Origin: a virus
Virus record (IMG/VR): IMGVR_UViG_3300030406_000458
Coordinates: 1 to 22,228 of that record
DNA: 22,228 nt
Strand: one strand, 5' to 3'
Within the stretch, counting starts at the first letter, position 1. Every line of letters begins with the position of its first letter. Shown here piece by piece: positions 1 to 22,228 of the stretch. Under the pieces are notes generated by a model. The model was not told the DNA's origin and ran no database searches. It saw only the letters and a program-made list of their open reading frames with translations. Both the position numbers and the translations under genes were made by a program.

Positions 1-102
1 CCGATCCAACTGGCGGCGGTCGATCTTCGGAACTTGTCAGACTCCGAGCTTGATGATATGCAACGATTGCTCGACAAGGTAGGGAGTGATGAGTCTAGCT
101 GA
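1..102 (+). CDS. C-terminal end of a gene in the terminase small-subunit position (partial)
   Basis: Frame 1 is open from the window edge to a TGA at 100-102 and gives 33 residues ending LDDMQRLLDKVGSDESS. The fragment is acidic and probably helical. The stop overlaps the start of the large terminase by a few bases, which suggests translational coupling. Position directly before the large terminase gene is typical of the small subunit, which recognises DNA for packaging. The fragment is too short to show any domain, so the function is inferred only from position. Confidence 0.55.
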   Translation, partial: PIQLAAVDLRNLSDSELDDMQRLLDKVGSDESS

Positions 103-1675
103 GAATGTAAACACAACAAGTCCTGCTGTACTGCGCGATCTTATCCGGACAGAGAAAGAGAGACGAGCTGCTAGTGCTTCGCTCTACGAGTTTGTCAAAC
201 AAAGCTGGCACGTTGTGGAGCCGGGGGTTCGGTTTATAGAGTCTTGGCACATACAGGAAATATGTGAGCACCTTGAGGCAGTTTCTGATGGTCAGATACA
301 GAAGTTGCTTATCAATATACCACCTCGACACAGTAAGAGCACGATAGTCAGTGTGATGTGGCCCATGTTCGAATGGTTAGCGTCACCAGATCAGAAGTTC
401 TTATGCGCGAGTTACTCAGGCAACCTCAGCATACGAGACAACCTCAAGGCGCGGAGACTTGTCCAATCCCCGTGGTATCAGGAACGTTGGGGTCATATGT
501 TCAAACTGTCAGGCGATCAGAACGCCAAGCAAAGATTCGAGAACGACAAGACCGGATACCGACTCGCCACATCGGTTGGTGGTACGGCAACGGGTGAAGG
601 GGGATCGAGACTGATCCTTGACGATCCGCACTCCGCACAAGAAGCGCAGTCAGATACAATCCGAGAGAGCGCACTGGATTGGTTCGACATGGTGTGGTCC
701 ACGCGACTGAACGATCCGCGCAATGACGCAATGGTCACCATCATGCAACGACTACATGACCGAGATATCTCAGGCCACATCTTGGATGACATCGGGGGTT
801 GGGAACATCTGATGATCCCAGCCGAGTGGGATGGTGTACCGAGGCGGTCGGTTCTCGGAGTGTATGACCCACGGCAAGTCGAGGGCGAACTGATTTGTCC
901 GGAACGGTTTGGCGAGAAGGAGATCACCGAACTCAAGCAGTTGTTGGGAACCTATGGCACGGCAGGCCAGTTGCAACAAGACCCGACACCGAGCGAGGGC
1001 GGTATCCTACGCACGCAATACTTTGAGTTGTGGCCTCACGATCAGGGGCTACCACCGTTTGAGTATATCCTACAAAGTTACGACTGTGCCTTTACGGAAA
1101 AGACAACGGGTGACCCGACAGCCTGTACGGTCTGGGCGATGTTTACCCACGAGGGCGAGAGGGGCGTGATGTTGATCGACGCATGGTCCGAGCACCTGAC
1201 TTATCCAGACCTTCGGGCCAGAGCAATCAAGGATTGGAACACCGAGTATGGGGGGATGAGTAAGGACAGCCCATACAGCCGAGCACGTAGACCGGATCGG
1301 ATATTGGTTGAGGCCAAGGCCAGTGGGCAATCACTCCTACAGGATTTGCGATTGGCTAAGGTACCTGCCGTGGGGTACAACCCACACAACGCAGACAAAG
1401 TCAGTCGAGCACATCAGGCCGCACCGATCTTGGAACTGGGCATGGTGTGGATACCGGAGAGCAAAAAAAATCCGGGCCATCGGGTTAGTTGGGCCAACGA
1501 CTTTTACAATGAGTTGACTAAGTTCCCAGTGGCTGCACATGATGATTATGTAGACACATTCACTCAAGCTATGATATATCTCAAAAATGATCACTGGTTT
1601 GAGCTACCGCAGGCGATGGATATCGATGAGCCTATCAAGCCCGACAAGCCAAGGATCAATCCTTATGCTGTTTAG
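89..1675 (+). CDS. terL: Terminase large subunit (packaging ATPase/nuclease)
   Basis: This is the motor that pumps phage DNA into the prohead through the portal and cuts the concatemer. Residue numbers count the GTG at 86 as residue 1. The ATPase half has a Walker A-type loop, IPPRHSKST (78-86), and a Walker B strand, LILDD (176-180). The C-terminal RNase H-like nuclease half has the expected acidic residues: D333 in SYDCAF, E409 in VEAKASG, and D486/D487 with D490 in HDDYVD. The length of about 528 residues is normal for the family. I prefer ATG 89 over GTG 86, with AAGG at 76-79 as the likely ribosome site. The gene overlaps the preceding one. Its GC content, judged from sampled lines, is clearly above that of the capsid and tail genes. 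Confidence 0.95.
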   Translation: MSLAENVNTTSPAVLRDLIRTEKERRAASASLYEFVKQSWHVVEPGVRFIESWHIQEICEHLEAVSDGQIQKLLINIPPRHSKSTIVSVMWPMFEWLASPDQKFLCASYSGNLSIRDNLKARRLVQSPWYQERWGHMFKLSGDQNAKQRFENDKTGYRLATSVGGTATGEGGSRLILDDPHSAQEAQSDTIRESALDWFDMVWSTRLNDPRNDAMVTIMQRLHDRDISGHILDDIGGWEHLMIPAEWDGVPRRSVLGVYDPRQVEGELICPERFGEKEITELKQLLGTYGTAGQLQQDPTPSEGGILRTQYFELWPHDQGLPPFEYILQSYDCAFTEKTTGDPTACTVWAMFTHEGERGVMLIDAWSEHLTYPDLRARAIKDWNTEYGGMSKDSPYSRARRPDRILVEAKASGQSLLQDLRLAKVPAVGYNPHNADKVSRAHQAAPILELGMVWIPESKKNPGHRVSWANDFYNELTKFPVAAHDDYVDTFTQAMIYLKNDHWFELPQAMDIDEPIKPDKPRINPYAV

Positions 1676-1684
1676 GAGAACAAC

Positions 1685-2704
1685 ATGGTGGTAGCTGACC
1701 TCATATCAGTCGAAGAGGCTTACGGACAAGATCCGGTCACGGGCGAAATTGACATGGATAAGTTCCGACAGTTTGCCGCGCAACAAGAACAGATACAGGC
1801 CAACAAGCCACAAGCTAGTAGAGAGATGCAATACCTTGCGGCCAACCCTGACGTTCTTCTGAATGCTCAGACAGAGTTAGCCAAAGCATCACGAGACAAC
1901 GAGCGACTTCGGACCAACCCGATAGGCGCGACAGCTTTTATTGAGAACGTAGCCCGACAGCATTACCTAAACTTTGGTAAGCAAGAAGGGCGTGAGGGGT
2001 TTGGGATAATTGATCCTCGAATGAAAGGTTTTGCGAACGTTATGGCGAACACCTACGACATGGATGATCCGGGAACTCAAGGAGGTACAAGGCCAGAGTT
2101 TTACACTGGAGCAAGCACGCTTGGTGACATGGAAAAATTTGTAAGTACAATTAGCCAACCATTGTACAATAAGTTAATTGACCGATTTGTTGATGACGAA
2201 ACGAATCCTGACAAAGCTCCCGGTCGGGTGGATGAGGTAATAAAATATATGTTTACCCCGAATAGTGTTGGTAACACGGGCTATGAAATATTTGGTGGTG
2301 ATGAGGCATTGTTAGAAGCGTATGATCAAATTGGGGTAACGGGTCAGGGTAAATCCTATGCCGATAAGCAGATAAAGACTCTTTTGGACCTTGCAAACAA
2401 ATATGAGGTTGACTTCAGTAGTCTTACTCCCGGTGTTTCAGATCAGGGGCCACGGTATGCTGGTGAATTAAACATGCCTGTCGGAGACGCTGCGCGACAG
2501 ATAGTTGGATCACTTATGCAAGTTGCTCCATTATTTTCTCCAAACGCTGCAGCGTTCACTCTTGGGAGTGGCGCTCTTAAATCTATTTTCGGCCCCAGAA
2601 CATTCCAAGAAGAGTTAGCGATGTCGTTAGGTTTTCCTAGTGCTGAACAGATAGCTGCGGAAGACGCTGATGAACTCAATATAGGAATGGGTGATAGCGA
2701 ATAA
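1685..2704 (+). CDS. Unknown 339-aa phage protein with NPDV...HYLNFG-x2-EGR motif
   Basis: I do not recognise a function. The ATG has a good ribosome site, AGGAGAA at 1674-1680. The N-terminal part is Gln/Ala rich and likely helical. It contains YLAANPDV (50-57) and, after about 35 residues, HYLNFGKQEGR (93-103). Together these resemble the two halves of a short motif common in secreted cyanobacterial and marine bacterial proteins, but with a longer spacer than usual. The middle (about 120-270) is mixed polar sequence. The C-terminus has a hydrophobic, Ala/Gly/Phe-rich segment around LMQVAPLFSPNAAAFTLG and then an acidic tail. There is no signal peptide. It lies between terminase and the giant next gene, with only two bases before the next start, so the two are probably co-translated. 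A virion or ejected accessory protein is possible. Confidence 0.75.
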   Translation: MVVADLISVEEAYGQDPVTGEIDMDKFRQFAAQQEQIQANKPQASREMQYLAANPDVLLNAQTELAKASRDNERLRTNPIGATAFIENVARQHYLNFGKQEGREGFGIIDPRMKGFANVMANTYDMDDPGTQGGTRPEFYTGASTLGDMEKFVSTISQPLYNKLIDRFVDDETNPDKAPGRVDEVIKYMFTPNSVGNTGYEIFGGDEALLEAYDQIGVTGQGKSYADKQIKTLLDLANKYEVDFSSLTPGVSDQGPRYAGELNMPVGDAARQIVGSLMQVAPLFSPNAAAFTLGSGALKSIFGPRTFQEELAMSLGFPSAEQIAAEDADELNIGMGDSE

Positions 2705-2706
2705 TT

Positions 2707-5700
2707 ATGAGCAAAAAGTCTCTCAAAGATAGTTTGCAATTAAATAAACCGAGACGCACGCCTAATCACCCAACCAAATCTCACGTTGTAAAGATCAACG
2801 ACAATGGCACCGAGAGACTAATCCGGTTTGGTCAACAAGGTGTGAGCACAGCGGGCAAGCCTAAGAAGGGCGAATCCAAAAAACAAAAGGCCAGACGTAA
2901 GTCGTTCAAGGCCAGACACGCCAAGAATATTGCTAAGGGTAAGACTTCGGCCGCGTACTGGGCGAACAAGGTCAAGTGGAACGAGGGTGGTCGTGTGTTG
3001 GGTGTCACCGGAGATGACCCACTGTCCGAGGCAATGGGTGATCGTTTAGTAACGCAACAACGTGGAGCCTTAGCTGATCTAAACGACGATGGACGAATTG
3101 ATATCATTGATGCCTATGAGTTCTTGCGTCCGTCTTATCCAACCGAGATTGCTGGGGCATTAAAGCAAGCTGGCAGTAACATTAGTCAGGGTGACATTGC
3201 AAAGGGTATGGCGATGGCTGGCTTGGGTACACTGATGGCCGCGGATTACATTCCGGGGGCGAAGTTTGCTACGAGCACGATAGGCAGACCTATCAAGAGT
3301 TTCTTACAGGGAGTTGGACAGAAGCTACCGGATACTTCCGTGTTAGAAGCTGCGAGTTACAAGGGCCGACTTGGAGAAAGACTTGGTAGCAGTCCACAAC
3401 AAAAAATGACGGTGGGTCAGGTAAGGAAACTTACTGAAGACATCAGCCCAACTGAGAAGCAGTTTATTGAACCGGAACTTGAAGACATAAGATATCAAGC
3501 CAAGCTACAGGAGATGGCTGGCGAAAAACCTGACGATACTGTCACGACAGAGTACCTACAGAAAGCGTTGCAGAGAAGAGTGCCAAAGTCTGGGGTGATC
3601 CGAGAAGAACTATTGAAATTCGATGACACTGGTGTTGTTCCAGAGTATGCAACAACCATGAGAAGACCGAAGGAGATTTCCCCCGGTTATGATCCTAAAG
3701 CCTCGGATGAGTATCAAGAGTTACTCGTAGGACTAACTCCGGAGATGGCAGTTAAATATCAAAAAGAAAATATGCGTACACAAGGTGGCGATTACTATGA
3801 TTTGCCTAATCCACACTTCGATGGGTATGAGAACACAATATTTCACATACGAAGTGATAGGTTTCGAGACAAAGCTATCCCCGGTCAGAAAGGAATGGAA
3901 GAGCCGAAGAACGTGACGTTTGCGGAAGAGATGCAATCGGACACGGCAATAATGAAAGCTAAACATGGCGAGTTTGATGTCAACACTGAAATAGATTTGA
4001 GTACGCCCAGAGTAAATGCAGACAAAAGAAATTTAGAAATAATTATAAGCGATGAGATTGTCCGTAATCCCGAAAGCAAAGAGACTTACGAGATTTTATC
4101 GGGTGGGCAACTTGGAGACATCTCAGCGGTGAGAGATGCAATCTACGAAAACATACAACGTGCTTTTCGTGAGTTAGGTGATGAAAAAATAACTCTTGGT
4201 AACAAAGCCAAGCTACAAAAAGAAATACAGGACGAATTAGGACAGATTAAAGACGGTATAGACCTCCTAAAGCTATTTGTTTCAGAATACCAAATGAAAG
4301 GAAATTTTACTAAGCTTCTAGATACCCAAAAGAAACTTGCAGGACTGCGCTATAAGCGTGATCGGTTAGAAATAAAACAAAGATTTTTAAATCGAATAGT
4401 TACGCCGCCGGGTGTGCCTAAAGGCTTTCCATTCTTGAAAGAGTGGCCCAAGTTAGCAATGCAACGATTAATCAACGAGGGTGTTGATAATGCTGACGAT
4501 GCAATTGGGTGGGTCAGTGGTACGCAATCGGCAGATATGCGTGAAAGTAGACGGTACATAGAGTCTTTCGATTATAATCCAAGCGAGGGTTATTTTAGTT
4601 ACTATGACCCAGTAAGAAAGACAGAGTTTAAAGATGAGATTTCAGTATTGGGGAATAGAAATCAAGAGGTGATACGGGAGCGATATGGCGAAGAAATAGC
4701 AGACATCATCTTTCAAAACACGGATGGAAACGAACAAGTCGGGCGTGCATTCGATAAGGATATTGCCGTTGATTTAATAGAGAATGGAAAAAATACAGCC
4801 GATGGTCCGAGACAGTTATACGACACTGTGATGGTCAAGGAAGCCAAGAAGATTGGCAAGAAGTATGGCGTAGAACCATACCAGACACCGAACGGTGATT
4901 GGCGAATGGACATCACGGACAAAATGCGTGAGGACTTTCTAACCGATGTAACCTATGCCGAGGGTGGTTCAGTCGAGCTTGACTTGGGGATGGACGAAAG
5001 AGATTTTCAAAGAGAGGTTACCAAACAGAGATCGAGTATTGCGGATTTGAATGATGACGGTGTTGTAAATTACATTGATCTGATTGAAGCCATCCGTCCT
5101 ACAGCCCCACAGGAATTACGAGAGATGGGGCAAACTATTATAAAACTATTAGACGATGATGAGATTGCTAAAGCAACGGCAATGGCTGGAATGATGGGTG
5201 TGAGCATGATACCGTTTGGTCGGACAGCTACTGCGGGACCGAGGCGTGAGATGACACGAAGTGTTATGAAAAAATACGATCCGAACATTGTCGAGAGCCG
5301 TGCCGAAGAAATTGTTAAGGGTGCAGAGAGTAGAGGTGGTAAAGGTCCGAGGGACGTAGGTGACACTGGTAAAGACGATTACTCTCGATTGACCAAAGAA
5401 GAGATTGATCCTTTGAACTATCAGGCAACCAAAATGGACAAGCCACCATCTGAGGTTGAGGTCGAATCAGAATCAGTAGTTGAGATGGCACCAAAGAAAA
5501 CAATCAGTATCGAAGATTTGGAAGGGAAAATAGCAATTCCTTTTTATGGAGATCGTTCGAGCCTTGGTGAAAAAATTACCGCTGTAGACGATATCAAATT
5601 GGAAACACCTGTCCTCACAGAAGGTGGCAGAGACTATATGCGTGGCGATGCAGGAAAAATAGGTGAGAATAAGCGTCTTCCAAATAATCCTGAAACAAAC

Positions 5701-6939
5701 ATTTGGGCATCGGGTCAAAGTATAATCGCTCGTTTAAAAAATCGTGCTCTTGAAGAAGCGAGAGAAACAGGTAAAGAAGTCGTGGGTATTACGGGAACAA
5801 TGTCACCCAGAGCTTTAGACTTTAACAATTTTACACCGGAGCTGCTTGCAGAAATGACAGCCGTGACTATTACTCGCGGTGGGATGAAGAAAAAAGATAT
5901 GAAAGCCTTTGACGCTCTGATGAAAAAACAAGTTGGTGAAGATAAAGATTTCAGACCTGTAAAGGATTGGCCCGGAATAGATTCACCGGATCTTCGTGAT
6001 TATATTGCTAAGGCACCGTCTAGAGTGCGGAAAAAATTTATGAGAATGATGGAGAAACAACCAGCACAGAAGGCTGGATTTCCTTCTCCGGGTAAAGCTA
6101 GGGTTGCTACTACGGATAGATCTCAACTAGATTCACCAGCCGGAATGTTTGGTGGAGCAATTGGTGAAATAGATTTAGAAGCTGATATTATTACCGATCC
6201 TCTAATACCACACTCTACCTACGACACACAAATGGCTGGGAAATATTTGGGTGCTCTTGAGCGTGATGTGCCACAAAGTCAATTATTTCAAGATTTGTAC
6301 AAAGAGCGTGAAGGAAAAATGGTTAGAGGCAAACTTGAATCAGAAGCAAATAAATCTACAGCGATACGCACCAAAGTACCGGGACAAGAAATAACACCGG
6401 AAATCGTAGATACAATTTCAGCGTCGATAGAAGAGATGAAAAAACGTGGCTATCAAGAGGGTGGATCAGTTGGTCAAAGTTTTTTTGATAACTTGTTCGA
6501 ACATTTTCTCGGAGCACAAGCCACGGGTGGAATTGATGTCAGTGGTGGTCGTAGCTATCGGGACATTTTGTTTTTCGATGGTGAAAAAGTTTCACAGAAA
6601 ACTTTACCACTTGACCAAATTCAAGGCTTTGCCGAGTTGGGTATTGTCAAAAACATCAACGACAATTTAGTGATAGATGCATCAGCGAGTGTCCAAGGTG
6701 GAATGGAAAACCTGCAAGATTTGTTTAGTTATGGACAATTACAAGCAGGTCCGGCTCAGGGCGGCATAACTTATCAGACCGATGACGGAAGTATCAGACT
6801 TGGTGGAAGATATGATCCACAGACGGATGAAAAGTTCATTGGGGTTCAAGGAAAGTTACGATTTGCCAAGGGTGGGGTTTACAACGCCAAAAAAGTTGAC
6901 ATGATGTCTGATCAGATACTGGAGGCATATGATGTCTGA
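2707..6939 (+). CDS. Giant 1,410-aa multidomain protein: basic N-motif, two dockerin-like loops, two polyvalent-type domains
   Basis: Visible parts in order are as follows. A very basic segment (about 50-92) has the core RRKSFKARHAKNIAKGK and AYWANKVKW. EGG follows at 93-95. A dockerin/EF-hand-like loop has D124, N126, D128, G129 and D135. A helical AMAG segment lies at 163-174. A large domain (about 340-740) has ENTIFHIR, FAEEMQSD (405-412), EWPKLAMQRL and LYDTVMVKEAKKIGKKYG. A second EGG lies at 752-754, a second loop at D780, N782, D784, G785 and D791, and a second AMAG segment at 825-828. A second domain spans about 930-1230. A third EGG (1251-1253) precedes a likely beta-rich C-terminal region that ends after KGG (1388-1390). 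The FAEEMQSD/LYDTVMV domain resembles a module I recall from large polyvalent proteins of marine phages. No catalytic function can be assigned. The start follows the previous stop by two bases without a strong ribosome site. Confidence 0.85.
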   Translation: MSKKSLKDSLQLNKPRRTPNHPTKSHVVKINDNGTERLIRFGQQGVSTAGKPKKGESKKQKARRKSFKARHAKNIAKGKTSAAYWANKVKWNEGGRVLGVTGDDPLSEAMGDRLVTQQRGALADLNDDGRIDIIDAYEFLRPSYPTEIAGALKQAGSNISQGDIAKGMAMAGLGTLMAADYIPGAKFATSTIGRPIKSFLQGVGQKLPDTSVLEAASYKGRLGERLGSSPQQKMTVGQVRKLTEDISPTEKQFIEPELEDIRYQAKLQEMAGEKPDDTVTTEYLQKALQRRVPKSGVIREELLKFDDTGVVPEYATTMRRPKEISPGYDPKASDEYQELLVGLTPEMAVKYQKENMRTQGGDYYDLPNPHFDGYENTIFHIRSDRFRDKAIPGQKGMEEPKNVTFAEEMQSDTAIMKAKHGEFDVNTEIDLSTPRVNADKRNLEIIISDEIVRNPESKETYEILSGGQLGDISAVRDAIYENIQRAFRELGDEKITLGNKAKLQKEIQDELGQIKDGIDLLKLFVSEYQMKGNFTKLLDTQKKLAGLRYKRDRLEIKQRFLNRIVTPPGVPKGFPFLKEWPKLAMQRLINEGVDNADDAIGWVSGTQSADMRESRRYIESFDYNPSEGYFSYYDPVRKTEFKDEISVLGNRNQEVIRERYGEEIADIIFQNTDGNEQVGRAFDKDIAVDLIENGKNTADGPRQLYDTVMVKEAKKIGKKYGVEPYQTPNGDWRMDITDKMREDFLTDVTYAEGGSVELDLGMDERDFQREVTKQRSSIADLNDDGVVNYIDLIEAIRPTAPQELREMGQTIIKLLDDDEIAKATAMAGMMGVSMIPFGRTATAGPRREMTRSVMKKYDPNIVESRAEEIVKGAESRGGKGPRDVGDTGKDDYSRLTKEEIDPLNYQATKMDKPPSEVEVESESVVEMAPKKTISIEDLEGKIAIPFYGDRSSLGEKITAVDDIKLETPVLTEGGRDYMRGDAGKIGENKRLPNNPETNIWASGQSIIARLKNRALEEARETGKEVVGITGTMSPRALDFNNFTPELLAEMTAVTITRGGMKKKDMKAFDALMKKQVGEDKDFRPVKDWPGIDSPDLRDYIAKAPSRVRKKFMRMMEKQPAQKAGFPSPGKARVATTDRSQLDSPAGMFGGAIGEIDLEADIITDPLIPHSTYDTQMAGKYLGALERDVPQSQLFQDLYKEREGKMVRGKLESEANKSTAIRTKVPGQEITPEIVDTISASIEEMKKRGYQEGGSVGQSFFDNLFEHFLGAQATGGIDVSGGRSYRDILFFDGEKVSQKTLPLDQIQGFAELGIVKNINDNLVIDASASVQGGMENLQDLFSYGQLQAGPAQGGITYQTDDGSIRLGGRYDPQTDEKFIGVQGKLRFAKGGVYNAKKVDMMSDQILEAYDV

Positions 6940-9466
6940 CGAAACTATGATGGAAGAAGAACAGCAAGGCGAAACTGTCGCTATCCCAAATGAGTTAGCA
7001 GAGGTTGAGGAAACAGAAGACGGTGGTGCTTTTGTTCGTCTTGAAGAAATGGAGTTGAGCCAAGAGCAAAGGCTTGCACATTTTGCTAATATTGTCGAAG
7101 AGGTAGACCAGAATAAACTCAACACGGCAATCATTGATCTAGTAGACAAGATTTCGAAAGACAAAGAGTCCAGAGAGAAACGCGACAAACAATACGAATT
7201 AGGTTTACAACGCACTGGACTTGGTGATGATGCACCGGGTGGAGCACAATTTGAAGGTGCTAACCGTGTGGTGCATCCAATGTTAATTCAAGCGTGCGTT
7301 GATTTTTCCGCACGATTTATGAAGGAAGCGTTTCCGTCGAACGGACCTGTCAAAAGTAAAGTTCAAGGTGAGCAAACACCAGACAAGCTAGAAAAAGCCA
7401 GACGGAAGACAGACTTTATGAACTGGCAAACTACGCAACAGATGCCTGAGTTTCGTGCTGAACTTGAACAACTAAGTACCCAACTCCCATTGGGTGGTGG
7501 TCAGTACATGAAATTTATGTGGGATAGTTTGCATCGTAAACCTCAGTCAGAGTTTATCCCGATTGACGATGTGTATTTACCGTTTGCCGCAACGAACTTC
7601 TATACGGCAGAACGTAAGACTCACGTTCAGTATATCACCAAGATGGAATACGAAAGACGGGTAAAATCCGGTATGTATATCGATGTCGATCTTGGTTATC
7701 CAAACGAGCCAGAGTATAGCAAGGCAACAACTGCCAACGATAAGATCGAAGGTAAGCAAGAAAGTAGTTACAACGAAGACGGCTTGAGAACTATCTTTGA
7801 AATTTACACCTTCATGGATTTCGATGATGGTTTAGAACCGTATATCCTGACGATAGACAAAACCACCAACAAAGCATTATCGCTGTACCGTAACTGGGAA
7901 GCAGATGATGAAATGAAAAACGAGTTGGATTGGATCGTAGAGTTTCCATTTGTTCCGTGGCGTGGTGCTTATCCTATCGGTTTGACCCAGATGATTGGTG
8001 GTTTGAGTGGTGCTGCAACCGGAGCACTGAGGGCATTGATGGATAGTGCTCACATTCAAAACATACCAACGATGTTAAAGCTCAAAGGTGGTCCAAGTGG
8101 ACAAACCATCAGCTTGCAGCCCACCGAAATAGCCGAAATCGAAGGTGGTGCAATGGTGGATGACATTCGCAAGATTGCAATGCCTCTTCCGTTTAGTGGA
8201 CCAAGCCCAACATTATTCCAATTACTTGGATTTTTAGTAGACGCGGGCCGTGGTGTTGTCCAAACATCATTTGAAAAGCTCAGTGATACAAATCCAAATA
8301 TGCCAGTTGGTACCACAATGGCCCTAATTGAACAGGGTATGGTGGTATTCAGTTCTATTCACTCACGTTTACATTCATCAATGGAGCGATGTTTCAAGAT
8401 TCTACACAGAATCAATAGTGCTTACATGGTGGATGAAGATCTACAGGGTAATGAAGCTGGTCTTGAGATAGAACCAGCAGACTTTGACGGTCCAATGGAC
8501 GTTATACCTGTTAGTGATCCAGCGATTTTTAGTGAAACACAGCGTTTTGCACAGATCCAAGCTATCATGGAACGTGCTCGGTTGATGCCTCAGATGTATG
8601 ATGCACGCAAAGTCGAGGAAATGTTCCTTAGAGTTATGAAAGTTCCCGACTCAGAGGTGTTAATTGACCCACCGGGAACAGAAAATCTTGACCCCGTGAG
8701 TGAAAATGTGGCGGCTGCACTGGGCAGACCCGTATACGTTCTCCCAGAGCAGGACCATATGGCACATATGATGACTCATTTGCCATTCCTGAAATCTCCA
8801 CTGTTCGGTGCAAACCCTGCAATCATGCCAAATTTTCTCTATCCTATGGCTATTCACTTACGGGATCATCTTTTGAACTATTATTTGGTCGAAGCACACA
8901 CGGCAGTGCAGCAAGCACAAGCTCAAAACTTAATTCAACAAGAAGCATCGGACGAAGTTACCGTCATTATGCAAGTTCAACAATTTATTGAGCAACAATT
9001 AGGCAATTTTGGCAAAGATTTAGCGCAAATGACTGCCGAAGCGCAGAAATATGCCCCACAACCGCCTATGCCACAGGATAAATCGCTAGAAATTGCACAA
9101 ATGACGCTTCAACAACGTGCTGAGTCAGATCGAGCTAAGATTCAACAAGATCAGATGGAACTTCAGGCGAAAATGCAGCTTGAAAAGGATAAAATGGAGC
9201 TAAAAGCCACTGAAATGATGAATGAAGACCAGCTTGAAGCGGCTAAAATAGAGAATGACATTGCAGATCGTCAGGCTAAATTTGACCTTGAAGCTATCAA
9301 ACAAGAGAACGAAAACAGAAGAAAGGCTGAGGATTTAGCCGCTAGAGAACGAATGAATGAGTCAGACAACGAGACAGCTAAGTTACTCGCAGCTGCTGAA
9401 ATGGCTACGGGTGAGAAGGTACGAGTATCCACTGGAACAGGAATTGACCCAGACCCGCAACCATAA
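6932..9466 (+). CDS. Portal protein (head-tail connector, podovirus type)
   Basis: The portal forms the dodecameric ring at one capsid vertex, docks the terminase and lets DNA in and out. The 844-residue length, the acidic N-terminus, the region GGAQFEGANRVVHPML followed by SARFMKEAFP, and the core PFVPWRGAYPIGLTQMIGG match the large portals of podovirus-type marine phages. The last 150 residues or so are Gln/Glu/Lys/Met-rich and predicted coiled coil, ending in a short Gly/Pro tail. This could form a long C-terminal barrel as in P22, which is inference. Two adjacent ATG codons exist at 6929 and 6932. GGAGG at 6921-6925 is better spaced for 6932. The start overlaps the end of the giant upstream gene by eight bases. 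Confidence 0.9.
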   Translation: MSDETMMEEEQQGETVAIPNELAEVEETEDGGAFVRLEEMELSQEQRLAHFANIVEEVDQNKLNTAIIDLVDKISKDKESREKRDKQYELGLQRTGLGDDAPGGAQFEGANRVVHPMLIQACVDFSARFMKEAFPSNGPVKSKVQGEQTPDKLEKARRKTDFMNWQTTQQMPEFRAELEQLSTQLPLGGGQYMKFMWDSLHRKPQSEFIPIDDVYLPFAATNFYTAERKTHVQYITKMEYERRVKSGMYIDVDLGYPNEPEYSKATTANDKIEGKQESSYNEDGLRTIFEIYTFMDFDDGLEPYILTIDKTTNKALSLYRNWEADDEMKNELDWIVEFPFVPWRGAYPIGLTQMIGGLSGAATGALRALMDSAHIQNIPTMLKLKGGPSGQTISLQPTEIAEIEGGAMVDDIRKIAMPLPFSGPSPTLFQLLGFLVDAGRGVVQTSFEKLSDTNPNMPVGTTMALIEQGMVVFSSIHSRLHSSMERCFKILHRINSAYMVDEDLQGNEAGLEIEPADFDGPMDVIPVSDPAIFSETQRFAQIQAIMERARLMPQMYDARKVEEMFLRVMKVPDSEVLIDPPGTENLDPVSENVAAALGRPVYVLPEQDHMAHMMTHLPFLKSPLFGANPAIMPNFLYPMAIHLRDHLLNYYLVEAHTAVQQAQAQNLIQQEASDEVTVIMQVQQFIEQQLGNFGKDLAQMTAEAQKYAPQPPMPQDKSLEIAQMTLQQRAESDRAKIQQDQMELQAKMQLEKDKMELKATEMMNEDQLEAAKIENDIADRQAKFDLEAIKQENENRRKAEDLAARERMNESDNETAKLLAAAEMATGEKVRVSTGTGIDPDPQP

Positions 9467-10328: not shown

Positions 10329-10522
10329 ACATAGAAACAAAATTGTTGAATGCTCTCAAAGCCAAACAGTTTGAGTTTGCTGAACAGGCTTTGAGACATC
10401 CACAAGAGCGCGATGTTTTCGAGTACGGGCATCGTTGCGGAATGATGGCAGGTTACGAGTCATCAATAAACGTACTATTGCAACTTTTAGATGAGGAAAA
10501 ATTCGGTGACAAAAACTTATGA
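10325..10522 (+). CDS. Small helical 65-aa protein, GTG start
   Basis: The start is a GTG at 10325 overlapping the TGA of the previous gene (GTGA), so it is probably translated by coupling. The protein is mostly amphipathic helix: an N-terminal segment KLLNALKAKQFEFAEQAL, then DVFEYGHRCGMMAGYESS, then a Leu-rich helix VLLQLLDEE. The FEYGxxxGMxAGxE pattern is similar to small proteins I associate with phage head regions, but I cannot name a family with certainty. The end overlaps the start of the GroES-like gene by 17 bases, placing the two under joint translation. No function is assigned. Confidence 0.65.
   Translation: MNIETKLLNALKAKQFEFAEQALRHPQERDVFEYGHRCGMMAGYESSINVLLQLLDEEKFGDKNL
10493..10497 (+). 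promoter_or_regulatory. Ribosome binding site deciding a GTG start for the co-chaperonin
   Basis: GAGGA lies eight bases before the GTG at 10506. The in-frame ATG at 10491 overlaps this site and has no Shine-Dalgarno sequence of its own, so GTG 10506 is the better start. Confidence 0.5.
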
Positions 10523-10922
10523 GAACGCATTGAAAGAGGCATTCCCTGATATTGACGCAGGTATACAGCCTTTTGGTAGCCGTGTTCTGGTTCAGATTAG
10601 GACAGCTAAAAAGAAAACAGCAGGTGGTATTATCTTAACGACAGATACCAAAGATACCGAAAAGTGGAATACACAAATCGGTAAAGTTATGCACGTTGGA
10701 CCTTTGGCTTTTAAAAATAGGAACACAATGGAATTATGGCCTGAAGGTAGTTGGTGTACCGATGGCGATTTTGTAAGGGTTCCAAAATACGGTGGTGACC
10801 GATGGGAAGTGCCTCTGGATAAAGATCCCAATGGCGAAAAAGCATTGTTCGTAATTTTTAATGATCTCGACATCATTGGAAAAGTGACAGGTGACCCACT
10901 TCAAATAAAAGCATTTATCTGA
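10506..10922 (+). CDS. GroES-like (Cpn10) co-chaperonin
   Basis: Counted from GTG 10506, the 138-residue protein follows the Cpn10 plan. PFGSRVLVQI (22-31) matches the first strand PLHDRVIVKR of GroES. KKTAGGIILTT (36-46) matches the mobile loop, with IIL (42-44) at the place of the IVL tripeptide that contacts GroEL. IGKVMHVGP matches the EVLAVG strand. DFVRVPKYGGDRWEV matches the GDIVIF/GYG region, and ALFVIFNDLDIIGKV matches the C-terminal strand. It is about 40 residues longer than GroES, mostly in an insertion around NRNTMELWPEGSWC and in both tails. Phage co-chaperonins such as T4 Gp31 retarget host GroEL to fold the capsid protein. The location just before scaffold and capsid genes fits that role. 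ATG 10491 is the alternative start. Confidence 0.85.
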   Translation: MTKTYENALKEAFPDIDAGIQPFGSRVLVQIRTAKKKTAGGIILTTDTKDTEKWNTQIGKVMHVGPLAFKNRNTMELWPEGSWCTDGDFVRVPKYGGDRWEVPLDKDPNGEKALFVIFNDLDIIGKVTGDPLQIKAFI

Positions 10923-13174: not shown

Positions 13175-14089
13175 ATGGCTACTCCTATGCGTAGTACCGA
13201 CTTTCGTTCGATAGTTGAACCTATCTTAAACGAAGTCTTCGATGGAATATATGAGCAACGTGCTGATGAGTGGGCTGAGGTATTCGAAGAGTATCAAGGC
13301 ATTCCTCGACAGTACCATGAAGAACCAGTTCTTTATGGTTTTGGTGCGGCACCAGAACTACCAGACGGTATGGCAGTGACATATCAGTCCGGTGGTGTGC
13401 TTTTCATTCAGAGATACCTCTATAAAGTGTACGGGCTTGCATTCGCCCTTACCAAAGTGCTTGTAGAGGACGGTGACCATATTCGTATTGGTTCAACGTA
13501 TGCTAAACATCTCGCTCAATCTTTGGTCGAAACCAAAGAAACTCTTGGTGCGAATATTCTGAACAGAGCATTCAACGCGGCCTTTCCGGGCGGTGATGGC
13601 GTTGCACTGAACAGTAATGCTCATCCAATTGTTAACGGTACGTTTAGTAACATACTGACGAATGCGGCAGCACTGTCTCAGACCTCTCTGGAACAAATGC
13701 TAATTCAAATCCGTAATGCGGTTGACAATAATGGTAAGCGAATCAGACTTACACCAACCCAAATCGTTACCGGACCAGCAAACGTTTTCCAAGCAGAAAC
13801 TCTACTAAAATCTGCTTTGAGACCGGGAACGGCTGATAACGACATCAACCCTGTTAAGTCAATGGGGCTACTGGGTGACGGTCAGGCAAACATCTCGCGT
13901 ATCACTTCGAGCACTGCTTGGTGGGTACAAACGGATGCTCCTGAAGGTCTGAAGCTGATGATGCGAAGAGGACTTGAGAAATCAATGGAAGGCGATTTCG
14001 AAACTGACTCAATGCGTTATAAAGCCACTGAACGTTACAACTTCGGTTGGACAGATCCGAGAGCAATCTTCGGAACACCCGGAGTTTAA
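13175..14089 (+). CDS. Major capsid protein
   Basis: The 304-residue product is the shell subunit. Its order fits the HK97 fold: an N-terminal helical arm (MRSTDFRSIVEPILNEVFDG), a beta E-loop region (DGMAVTYQSGGVLFIQRYLYKVYG), a spine-like helix (IGSTYAKHLAQSLVETKETL), then NRAFNAAFPGGDGVALNSNAHP (130-151). KRIRLTPTQIVTGPANVFQA and a C-terminal part with LMMRRGLEK and ERYNFGWTDPRAIFG follow. The GGDG-x-ALNS-x-AHP motif resembles Mu gpT-like major head proteins as I recall them. It is the last gene before a strong terminator, and a GGGGGG-containing ribosome site precedes the ATG. No propeptide is obvious. Confidence is high from order and motifs. Confidence 0.88.
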   Translation: MATPMRSTDFRSIVEPILNEVFDGIYEQRADEWAEVFEEYQGIPRQYHEEPVLYGFGAAPELPDGMAVTYQSGGVLFIQRYLYKVYGLAFALTKVLVEDGDHIRIGSTYAKHLAQSLVETKETLGANILNRAFNAAFPGGDGVALNSNAHPIVNGTFSNILTNAAALSQTSLEQMLIQIRNAVDNNGKRIRLTPTQIVTGPANVFQAETLLKSALRPGTADNDINPVKSMGLLGDGQANISRITSSTAWWVQTDAPEGLKLMMRRGLEKSMEGDFETDSMRYKATERYNFGWTDPRAIFGTPGV

Positions 14090-15454: not shown

Positions 15455-16008
15455 TGAAATCGAGCTATCCCTTTCGAGACGGTTGGCATTTTGATTCTTC
15501 GTTTGGTTTCACAAAATCAAGTTCTCGTGGAATGAAAAAAGGTGGATCAACATCTGACAAAAACTGGATTCAGGGGGCTGTAAAAAAGCCGGGTGCGTTG
15601 ACTTCCTACGTTAAAAGCGAAGGGGTCAAAATGAAGGATGGAAAAATTCCCAAGGGCGTGATTAACAAATTAGCCGAAGGGAAGCCAGCTAAAAAAGGTG
15701 CTGGTAAACCATCTGCAACCACTCAGAAAAGAGCCAACCTAGCCAAGACTTTTTCAAAAATGAATAAAGCTGATGGCGGTAGAGTCAACCGTAATATTCG
15801 TGATGAGGAAGCTCGTGTCATTGGTGTTCAGGACGATGCCGCGGATGAAATGCGTAGAGTTAGAGCACGAAGACCCAAAGATGCTCAGGAAAGACGCGAC
15901 AAGCGTCAACAACTAAAAAGAGTTGCATCTAGGGAAAGAAATGCTCGTGACGAAATGCGTAGACTTCGGGGCGAAGCTGAATATGATATTAAACGGAGAA
16001 AACGATGA
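15454..16008 (+). CDS. Basic protein with WIQGAVKKPGAL motif, 184 aa
   Basis: Counted from ATG 15454, the short N-terminal part contains Trp and Phe. It is followed by a KKGG motif and then WIQGAVKKPGAL (38-49), a segment close to a W-x-x-x-A-[IV]-K-[KR]-P-G-A-L motif found in many phage proteins. QKRANLAKTFSKM (91-103) follows; in such proteins it usually forms the second half of the same small domain. KADGGRV (105-111) comes next, and the final 70 residues are an Arg/Glu/Lys-rich coiled coil. The whole is strongly basic, so contact with packaged DNA or with the acidic scaffold is plausible but not shown. GGGAG at 15442-15446 fits ATG 15454 better than ATG 15451. The end overlaps the next start as ATGA. 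Confidence 0.7.
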   Translation: MKSSYPFRDGWHFDSSFGFTKSSSRGMKKGGSTSDKNWIQGAVKKPGALTSYVKSEGVKMKDGKIPKGVINKLAEGKPAKKGAGKPSATTQKRANLAKTFSKMNKADGGRVNRNIRDEEARVIGVQDDAADEMRRVRARRPKDAQERRDKRQQLKRVASRERNARDEMRRLRGEAEYDIKRRKR

Positions 16009-16415
16009 AATCTAAAGGTTATGCCAAAGGCGGCAAAAGAATGATGAAGTCCAAAGGCTATGCCAAGGGCGGTAAGAAACAAGGCTACAACGCAAGGCTT
16101 GACGAATCTCTCGGTATGAGAAGAGGCAAAGAGTCTTCCAAATCCCAGAGCATGAAGTCTCGAAGAGATGAAAGCAAGGGTATGGAAAAAGCTATGGGCC
16201 GTAGAGCTTATCAGTCTGTCGGAACGATGGATATGAAACGTGGTGGTTCTATGAAAACCAAAGGCATGAAACGTGGTGGTACCATGAAAACCAAAGGCAT
16301 GATGCGTGGTGGTTCGATGAAAAGTAAAGGCATGATGAAAGGCGGTTCCATGAAATCAAAAGGTGGTTTCAAGGCAATGCCCGGTGATGCCCAATTTAAA
16401 AGAAAGTCTTGGTGA
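16005..16415 (+). CDS. Lys/Gly/Met-rich repetitive basic protein, 136 aa
   Basis: The start overlaps the previous stop as ATGA. The product is made almost entirely of short Gly-Gly/Lys repeats. Two copies of MKSKGYAKGGK lie at the N-terminus. A middle segment (ARLDESLGMRRGKESSKSQS) is less repetitive. Four 11-residue units of the form M-[KM]-[RK]-GG-[ST]-MK-[TS]-KG follow, and the tail is GGFKAMPGDAQFKRKSW. There are almost no acidic residues in the repeats and no hydrophobic core, so it is probably disordered alone. Such a protein could bind DNA or RNA or coat another virion protein. I do not recognise a family beyond the Gly-Gly motif shared with other proteins here. Continuous reading frame and conserved repeat sense argue that it is real. 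Confidence 0.7.
   Translation: MKSKGYAKGGKRMMKSKGYAKGGKKQGYNARLDESLGMRRGKESSKSQSMKSRRDESKGMEKAMGRRAYQSVGTMDMKRGGSMKTKGMKRGGTMKTKGMMRGGSMKSKGMMKGGSMKSKGGFKAMPGDAQFKRKSW
16233..16364 (+). repeat. Four 33-base tandem repeats encoding M-x-x-GG-x-MKxKG
   Basis: Units begin at 16233, 16266, 16299 and 16332. Units 1 and 2 differ only at one codon (TCT versus ACC). Units 3 and 4 use different synonymous codons (CGT/AAA, GGT/GGC, AGT/TCA), while keeping the amino-acid pattern. The repeat thus combines a recent duplication (units 1-2) with older copies that have diverged at silent sites. Confidence 0.9.
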
Positions 16416-20704: not shown

Positions 20705-22228
20705 ATGAGCAATCTGTCAGAGCTACTGCCCTCTGGCGGTGGACAAAATGCTCTAAATTTTACAGCGACAGGAACGCTTAGTAACGGAGCCGTAGTCGGT
20801 CTAAAATCGGATGGGACGGTTGCCGTTTTAGACCCCGATGCAGTAGGTAGTCCAGCTGACTTTCCTTCTAACTACAATGTACAGTTAGCTGCGGCTTGTT
20901 ATGATTCTATTAGAGATGTAGTTCATGTAGCATACAAAGATTTAGGAACCTCCTATGTAACGCATAGCGCGGGGTCAATTAGTGGCTCAACTATTACTTG
21001 GGGAACAAAATCTACCGTTGCCTCGGAAGATCCTAAAGATATAGATATCGCAATGAATGAATCAATTCAGTTCCCAATTATAGCCTTCTGTCAATCAAGT
21101 GGTGGAAATGTGAAGGTTCGTTCTGGATCAGGTGGCTCTGGAACAACGATGAATTGGAATGGAAATCTTTTAGTTGTTCAATATGGTGACAATAATAACT
21201 GCATGATAGTTCCTAACCCACCAAATTCAGATTCTTCAAGTGCAGAAACGTGCATAGTATTTAATACTCAAAGTAATGGAAGAGCTTACGTGGCGGCTCT
21301 TACAACTACAAGTGGTGCTTCTACAAGTATAAGGTTGGGACCAACTACTCTAGCTTACGTTGCTAATACTCATTTTTTACCAGTTGGACTCATCTATGAT
21401 GCAACTGCTCAGAGCCAAGTTTGTGTCCTAAACCAAGTTAACTACAGTAATGCTTATCAAGGATGTCAAGCCCATCAAATAAATATTGCATCAACTCAAA
21501 TAAATTTTAGTACAGGTGCAACCATAGGTACGGCATTTGGAGCGTCTGGTACAACTTGTGACGAATCTTTATCAAGTAACACTCGTAGAATGGCTACATC
21601 TGGAAATGGCAAGCAAGTGATAACCGGATCTTTCAAAGAAGGAAGTGGGGGATCAAATACTTTGAGAGCTTATGTGATTACTACAAATGGAACCTCTCAA
21701 GCTCCTTCTATCGCAAGTCCTGTAGATATGCTCCCCGGACAGTCCGGTAATATATTTTATGGCACTAACACTGTGTACGACTCGAATGCCGGTTTATTTG
21801 TTACAGTTGTTGGGTTGGGTACAAATTCGTATTATGCTACCGTTTTGACTTCAACATTAAGTGGTACAACATTCACTGTTAATTCTGGGCAAACAAGTTT
21901 GCAGTCTCAGAATATCTACTATGACGCAATTACGGCTACCTATTCCGATCACACAAACAACACTGTAATAACATCTAACCAAAATCCAGTTGCGGCCTAT
22001 CGAGGCGTTACATTTGCGGTCGGAACCTTAAATGTCGATAAACTTATCGGAATTACAGCGCAAGCAATTTCAAATGGTGCAAGTGGCACGGTAAATTTAC
22101 TGGGTGGTATCAATGAATCGCAATCCGGTTTAACACCGGGTCTAGACTATTATGTTGATGCATCTACAGGTCAATTAACAGCAACATCGTCGGGTAATAC
22201 GTTTATTAGCACGGCGGTATCAGCCACC
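20705..22228 (+). CDS. Tail appendage protein with divergent propeller-type repeats (partial, runs off the window)
   Basis: An ATG at 20705, one base after the previous stop, opens a frame that stays open for 508 codons to the window edge. The N-terminus is MSNLSELLPSGGGQNALNFTAT. The middle is a series of repeats with YDSIRDVVHVAYKDLG...GSISGSTITWG and, later, YDSNAGLFVTVVGLG...STLSGTTFTV, which look like worn copies of the YD-x-VVxAYxD repeat seen in phage tail proteins and probably form a beta propeller. The end has NVDKLIGITAQAISNGASGT, LLGGINESQSGLTPGLDYYV, an established-looking fibre module. The true stop is not seen. Adsorption or tail spike function is inferred; no lyase or sialidase catalytic motif was found. 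Confidence 0.82.
   Translation, partial: MSNLSELLPSGGGQNALNFTATGTLSNGAVVGLKSDGTVAVLDPDAVGSPADFPSNYNVQLAAACYDSIRDVVHVAYKDLGTSYVTHSAGSISGSTITWGTKSTVASEDPKDIDIAMNESIQFPIIAFCQSSGGNVKVRSGSGGSGTTMNWNGNLLVVQYGDNNNCMIVPNPPNSDSSSAETCIVFNTQSNGRAYVAALTTTSGASTSIRLGPTTLAYVANTHFLPVGLIYDATAQSQVCVLNQVNYSNAYQGCQAHQINIASTQINFSTGATIGTAFGASGTTCDESLSSNTRRMATSGNGKQVITGSFKEGSGGSNTLRAYVITTNGTSQAPSIASPVDMLPGQSGNIFYGTNTVYDSNAGLFVTVVGLGTNSYYATVLTSTLSGTTFTVNSGQTSLQSQNIYYDAITATYSDHTNNTVITSNQNPVAAYRGVTFAVGTLNVDKLIGITAQAISNGASGTVNLLGGINESQSGLTPGLDYYVDASTGQLTATSSGNTFISTAVSAT

Follow-up and report, generated by a model that had tools for sequence, protein, structure and literature searches.

A phage protein with homologous connector cassettes, GG joints and domains swapped between sister phages

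We examined a 1,410-amino-acid (aa) open reading frame (ORF) of a marine phage in the IMG/VR virus record IMGVR_UViG_3300030406_000458, whose complete 22,228 bases, possibly a fragment, form the window analysed here. The protein is a chain of modules (an N-terminal phrog_7595 domain, domains A and B, and a C-terminal region) that meet at short Gly-Gly (GG) joints, and behind two of these joints stand homologous copies of a connector, which we call cassettes 1 and 2. In sister phages, referred to by contig (L numbers), cassettes and domains have been swapped, and modules are fused or split at the joints. On balance we lean towards the view that this is a modular phage effector of the polyvalent type, probably carried in the phage head and injected along with the DNA, in which the cassettes would serve as hinge or spacer connectors.

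The two cassettes align with a BLOSUM62 local score of 133, against a mean of 29 and a maximum of 56 among 2,000 shuffles. When the calcium-type loop is masked the score is 67, and the half that follows the loop scores 59 alone; 0/2,000 shuffles reach either value. The stretch from EGG to the loop scores 25, which 101/2,000 shuffles reach, and is therefore not significant and no evidence by itself. BLASTP of cassette 1 against cassette 2 gave E 1e-15 (41% over 82), and HHalign of the cassette 1 family (6 sequences) against the cassette 2 family (4 sequences) gave 97.9% with E 4.4e-13 over 85 columns, which bears out the internal duplication proposed in an earlier, sequence-only reading of this DNA. 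Cassette 1 runs from GG through a GDDPLSEAM segment and the loop to an Ala/Gly-rich AMAG..IP helix. Every EGG, loop and AMAG in that reading lies where it was placed: EGG at residues 93, 752 and 1251, with an extra one at 972 inside domain B that is not a joint, and AMAG at 169 and 825, each 45 residues from the first loop Asp. The order of elements that it described is present twice in the window, but some relatives do not keep all of PTEI/PQEL, [DE]IAK, AMAG and the IP turn. No direct DNA repeat was found between the cassettes, which rules out a recent DNA duplication and indicates that the duplication is old. A search for a bacterial origin of the cassette returned 595 pattern stretches in 84,980 species genomes, of which none was confirmed.

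The number of cassettes varies among the 20 contigs of the clade (window included), 13 of which have both. In L003, L173, L174 and L175 a single cassette lies directly behind the N-terminal domain and is followed, with no domain A, by an alternative domain B'; L012 shares both ends of the protein, and B', with these one-cassette contigs. L169, whose 5' end is cut, shows cassette 2 only. In L177, cassette 1 and domain A form a gene of their own that lacks the N-terminal domain and EGG; its likely start codon lies 2 bases past the stop of the upstream gene, and an in-frame ATG exists further upstream. The exchanges themselves are visible in nucleotide identity to the window, compared codon-wise and used here unless amino-acid identity is named. 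Cassette 2 of L085 is 0.94 identical before the loop, 0.44 from the loop onward and 0.93 in its tail, with domain B at 0.96 and the C-terminal region at 0.97. L162 shows the reverse pattern, with 0.94 from the loop of cassette 2 onward and 0.39 in domain B. The corresponding values for L169 are 0.43 from the loop onward, 0.66 in B and 0.98 in the C-terminal region, and L083 has 0.99 in B and 0.61 in the C-terminal region. Residues 601-715 of domain A are an exchanged block with two alleles among relatives, the amino-acid identity being 0.49-0.52 in L084, L085, L086, L162 and L169 and 0.86 in L083. The edges of these swaps are sharp, near window positions 5010-5040 and 5262 for cassette 2 and near 5340, the end of the cassette, for B. 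L166, which belongs to the L001-like group, has the second B allele. Judged by these identities, connectors are exchanged between constant domains and domains are exchanged behind constant connectors. The proposed layout of domains plugged into a common connector is thus upheld by natural swaps in sister phages, in which one or two cassettes occur with other domains inserted; homologues with a single loop do exist, yet swapping exists as well. As to the scope of the searches, the one for domain A in viral contigs used narrow patterns and gave only 14 loci, all of the window clade, and domain A was not found in plasmids; the B pattern missed L087, L088, L089 and L166 though B is present there, and L176 ends before B.

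The joints can be recognised from both sides, as gene ends and as points of fusion. The phrog_7595 domain is mostly a stand-alone gene in relatives, ending in ..YWANKVKW. Among the best 80 of at least 597 relatives, that is, the loci closest to the window with one match each, a stop follows directly after the YWxxKVKW end in 69 (65 distinct sequences). The remaining 11/80 loci (11 distinct) read through past the Trp, and in 11/11 of them GG lies no more than 4 residues from it. These read-through copies are partly alike (L009/L011, L027/L045 and L001/L003/L012 of the window clade) and by our own grouping on the downstream protein represent about 7 independent cases. In L027 and L045 a homologue of the 339-aa gene that precedes ours in the window is fused upstream of the phrog_7595 domain via FKEGG or YKEGG, and in L019 the boundary between two separate genes falls precisely on the position of joint 1. 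Across 13 proteins there are 47 occurrences of the motif [FYWM]x[EDKRQNH]GG, where composition shuffles predict 4.29, a descriptive figure rather than a genome-wide test since the proteins (6 of the window clade) were picked as set members. From these sequences the joint is usually aromatic-x-charged-GG, and it is this GG joint, not the calcium loop, that is the general element. A side observation is a 136-aa ORF at window positions 16005-16415 that consists of KSKGYAKGG / MKRGGSMKTKG repeats and holds seven copies of [KR]GG, a joint-like motif.

Among the rivals to this account the strongest is that the joints are cleaved, although we consider it unlikely. Here the GG joints would be protease sites, and a polyprotein would be processed at aromatic-x-E/K-GG, either as the head matures or once the protein has entered the host, so that each module is set free together with its cassette. 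The E before GG resembles the sites of the T4 prohead protease. Consistent with cleavage, module edges are gene edges elsewhere, as in the 69 loci that stop after KVKW; the likely start of the L177 gene lies where joint 1 would end, and the gene boundary of L019 falls there too. Iyer et al. (PMC5512222) propose that zincin-like peptidases process polyvalent proteins. Against cleavage, the residue before GG is not constant, being E, K or R in the clade and D, Q or H elsewhere, and Peptidase_C39 and Peptidase_S78, the two families covered with a working control, were not found in three larger relatives, which may be fragments.

Cassettes behind GG joints are not confined to the window clade. The proteins of L004 (1,731 aa) and L010 (1,573 aa) carry their own doubled cassettes after GG and before different domains, with within-protein z scores of about 50 and 31; by score, the cassettes of L004, L010 and the window are mutually unrelated (cross-family z at most 4.0). 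These doubled unrelated cassettes, like the GG joint as a general element, are new relative to the sequence-only reading. The cassette of L200 is related to that of the window (profile E 4.6e-9; z 22 with cassette 1) and that of L019 reaches z 18-20 against cassette 1 of L001; L200 and L019 have two cassette segments each (within-protein z 12-15). The domains that accompany GG joints include PcfJ, above cut-off in L004 and L011, a sub-threshold ART-PolyVal match in L004 (27.7 vs 31.2 bits) and, in L031 with its YAEGG joints, an SLT transglycosylase domain (E 6.7e-27) plus one that is ART-PolyVal-like (20.1 vs 31.2 bits) ahead of a tail that we read as beta-rich. No Pfam family was found in L010, L057 or L200. 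Separately, an 880-aa protein of L192 (5677-8316, minus strand) begins with a part that appears lysozyme-like by eye, behind which lie three EGG motifs and, as in cassette 1, the segment GDDPLSDAMGPRL; Pfam found no family in this protein.

The calcium-type loop occurs 32 times in 19 contigs of the clade, as 8 distinct sequences. Because D1 and N3 were fixed by the search pattern, conservation there is not counted; 8/8 distinct loops have D, G and D at positions 5, 6 and 12 and either D or N at position 9, while positions 2, 4, 7, 10 and 11 vary. Both window loops and all 8 distinct clade loops fit the dockerin calcium-ligand pattern DxNxDGxx[DN]xxD, and dockerin-type loops bind calcium. Given this conservation in the clade and the degenerate loops of L200 and L019, where Asp is kept only at positions 5, 9 and 12, calcium binding is likely in the window clade and uncertain in the wider cassette family. 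Since L012 is altogether without the loop, and L200 and L019 have only degenerate forms, the loop is not the essence of the connector.

In the reading that we favour, the protein would be a late product that is loaded into the head and enters the host together with the DNA. Its modules (the phrog_7595 domain, a GNAT-like domain A, B and the beta-rich tail) would be strung at aromatic-x-charged-GG joints, with a copy of the connector after two of them. This connector would begin with a GG hinge and short helices, continue through one calcium loop of EF/dockerin type, and close with a helix that is rich in Ala and Gly, moderately hydrophobic and in most cases ended by a Pro turn. Such a cassette may act as hinge and spacer, letting the modules fold alone and thread one by one through portal and tail, and its constant edges may act as homology arms through which cassettes and domains are traded between phages. 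We infer virion packaging, injection and the hinge role from gene position, domain company and the proposals of PMC5512222. More speculatively, calcium might stiffen the cassette in a capsid equilibrated with seawater and be lost in the host cytosol.

Several observations weigh against this reading. Besides the missing and degenerate loops described above, the cassette profile found nothing on the L019 record, so that this link depends on pairwise scores. In a less selected count, at least two GG motifs occur in 19/153 non-redundant ORFs no shorter than 500 aa, and doubled segments lie behind the motifs in 6/19, three of which belong to the window clade while the others are L004, L010 and L031; sites drawn at random from these proteins gave 3/57, so some background repeats are present. 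The structure models lend the hinge no support: by the predicted local distance difference test score (pLDDT), the block means of cassette 1 stay below 50 and those of cassette 2 lie at 26-61. Hydrophobic peaks were scanned in 12 proteins with a threshold of 1.1; in favour of the reading, 12/15 peaks fall in cassettes and two more behind joint 1 of L057. Against it, the one in L003 falls outside the cassette, window cassette 1 stays below 1.1, and four of the 12 proteins (L085, L004, L009 and L011) have no peak. The usual membrane cut-off is 1.6, which no peak reaches, and on that ground we reject a transmembrane helix.

The cassettes might instead be mere scars of gene fusion or recombination at GG linkers, copies without a function of their own, which again seems improbable. 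The lost loop of L012 and the degenerate loops of L200 and L019 would agree with this, as would the fact that GG joints also connect otherwise separate genes. However, the swapped cassette 2 keeps a complete loop at about 30% amino-acid identity, D5, G6, D/N9 and D12 are kept in all distinct clade loops amid variable positions, and the unrelated cassettes of L010 again have hydrophobic peaks, which those of L004 lack.

The sequence-only reading had offered the cassette as an anchoring or spacing element; spacing, or a hinge, is the part that we retain, and anchoring is unsupported. Dockerin type I consists of a tandem pair of loop-helix segments in a span of about 60 residues. The window cassette shares with dockerin type I (PF00404) the twelve-residue calcium-type loop and its ligand pattern, and the Pfam Dockerin_1 match falls just under the cut-off (22.4 vs 22.9 bits, E 1.4e-4), with EF-hand models matching more weakly; but each cassette has a single loop, the two at residues 124 and 780 being 656 residues apart and no tandem pair, the match spans only model positions 29-49 of 57, and cohesin was not found in the window or in the L085, L084 and L173 records (47-55 kb, possibly fragments), all of which makes anchoring to a cohesin on virion or host very improbable. 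The phage passages of PMC3558961 and PMC5967307 in which 'dockerin' appears concern other proteins.

Our preferred reading of the modules as separate effector domains draws in part on structure models. Domain A was modelled with AlphaFold2 (AF2) from 16 sequences, and the block mean pLDDT is 68-94 at about residues 401-740. Rows 1-14 of the VIA-align search have Z 9.2 to 8.0 over 126-142 residues with a root-mean-square deviation of 2.9-4.3 and are GNAT-fold proteins, as their titles state except in the ICL2 and Rv1916 rows; several of them are entries of one protein. A helical insertion at residues ~428-568 matches unrelated rows. Weighing against the assignment, residues ~291-400, which include the first strands, have pLDDT of about 36-67, and the usual GNAT acetyl-CoA motif, [QR]xxGx[GA], has no match in residues 295-748; for want of this motif we describe the domain as GNAT-like rather than class it as an acetyltransferase. 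Foldseek gave no match to the model at E below 0.001. With GNAT folds such as AtaT, KacT and NatD, the model shares some 120-140 aligned residues at Z 7-9, and it differs in its ~140-residue helical insertion, the missing motif and a core that is partly of low confidence. Domain A thus looks GNAT-like, a fold resemblance that is supported but not settled. Weak similarity to domain A (E 1e-3) is also seen in a protein of a Dolichospermum phage, where an ART-PolyVal domain follows immediately (68.3 vs 31.2 bits for the cut-off). Window positions 3994-4371 and 4507-4851 (residues ~430-555 and 601-715) diverge far faster between near relatives than the rest of A and may form a target-specific surface.

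The model of domain B has block mean pLDDT mostly of 83-95. No Pfam family was above cut-off for domain B or the relatives scanned, and six B-carrying proteins gave no PHROG beyond one weak phrog_4700 line (E 0.05). A PDB sequence search gave nothing useful. Among viral models, 16 match the model of residues 749-1410 at E below 0.001; most belong to unnamed proteins of uncultured phages, one to a protein called PcfJ-like and one to a structural protein. Foldseek on the PDB gave nothing at E below 0.001. YTHDF2 as the fold of B (VIA Z 6.3, 136 aligned, rank 40) stands behind barrel matches to the low-confidence tail and is not claimed. HHalign of B with B', which might be one family, gave E 2.6e-4 and a probability of 42%. 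Among the best 80 of 190 relatives, other marine phages encode domain B in separate genes; in L147 it is preceded by an ART-PolyVal match below threshold, and to our eye L130, L093 and L143 have a similar region there that has no Pfam match. The C-terminal region is modelled with low confidence as a beta meander, whose barrel matches of up to Z 8.5 are not relied on. The beta-rich C-terminal ends of the window protein (6556-6861) and of L031 (end of 3579-7457) resemble strands of outer-membrane proteins, with low confidence and for L031 by eye only.

Table 1. Parts of the 1,410-aa protein and neighbouring genes in the window
Feature	Window position	Strand	Remarks
Terminase gene	86-1675		
339-aa gene	1685-2704		no assigned product
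1,410-aa ORF	2707-6939	+	
N-terminal domain, residues 1-91	2707..2979	+	phrog_7595 E 2.8e-35, residues 7-91
Joint 1, W-N-E-G-G, residues 91-95	2977..2991	+	
Cassette 1, residues 91-205	2977..3321	+	homologous to cassette 2 and to L200 and L019 cassettes
Loop 1, DLNDDGRIDIID, residues 124-135	3076..3111	+	
Domain A, residues ~295-748	3589..4950	+	AF2 model, structural matches, allele blocks
Joint 2, Y-A-E-G-G, residues 750-754	4954..4968	+	
Cassette 2 (type I), residues 749-880	4951..5346	+	type II instead in L085, L086, L169
Loop 2, DLNDDGVVNYID, residues 780-791	5044..5079	+	
Domain B, residues ~893-1248	5383..6450	+	mostly confident alpha/beta model; B' instead in L162
Joint 3, Y-Q-E-G-G, residues 1249-1253	6451..6465	+	
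C-terminal beta-rich region, residues 1284-1385	6556..6861	+	low-confidence barrel-like model; missing in L084, L086 (8/103 residues aligned)
Joint 4 and C-terminal tag, FAKGGVYNAKKVDMMSDQILEAYDV, residues 1386-1410	6862..6936	+	joint 4 is FAKGG, residues 1386-1390
Portal gene	6929-9466		
GroES-like co-chaperonin gene	10491-10922		Pfam Cpn10, E 8e-10; between portal and capsid genes
Capsid gene	13175-14089		

The gene lies between terminase and portal, as had been noted before, with the 339-aa gene separating it from the terminase gene (Table 1). Elsewhere, window positions 20705-22228 and L208 6925-12565 (minus strand) hold successive large genes with similar starts, [MV][ST]NLS[DE]LLP; the window copy has a Pfam Phage_cement_2 match, and these repeated genes are perhaps a cement-like family.

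Beyond the window, it is possible, though we put this forward tentatively, that marine phages share, for multidomain proteins that they inject, a grammar of joints in which aromatic-x-charged-GG marks every module edge, a copy of a phage-specific connector precedes each effector, domains are exchanged like cartridges and, in the window clade, a calcium switch keeps the connector ordered in a calcium-rich capsid at equilibrium with seawater and frees the domains in the cytosol. In the papers found on polyvalent proteins, dockerins, connectors, and calcium and ejection, neither joint nor cassette was found described in titles and the opening parts of abstracts, which is no proof of absence. Polyvalent architectures are known, and how domains are added without breaking delivery is the question that the swaps between sister phages address. 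If the joint rule is general, uncharacterised phage proteins could be divided into modules and effectors found by position.

The closest known system is that of the polyvalent proteins (Iyer et al. 2017, PMC5512222), which are proposed there to be packaged and injected. Like them, ours is a large multidomain protein beside virion genes in a phage with terminase and portal, and in the window it is indeed encoded with terminase, portal and capsid genes; PcfJ, transglycosylase and, below threshold, ART-PolyVal domains occur in other proteins joined through this GG motif. It differs in that neither domain A nor domain B matches a Pfam family, and the abstract, sections and passages of PMC5512222 considered here describe no shared connector or GG joint, the word 'linker' being absent from its main text. 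Podophage ejection proteins, which a review (PMC8954989) terms mosaically conserved in its title and plastic in its abstract, resemble our protein in the route that it would take, from the head through the portal channel, a likeness of route only.

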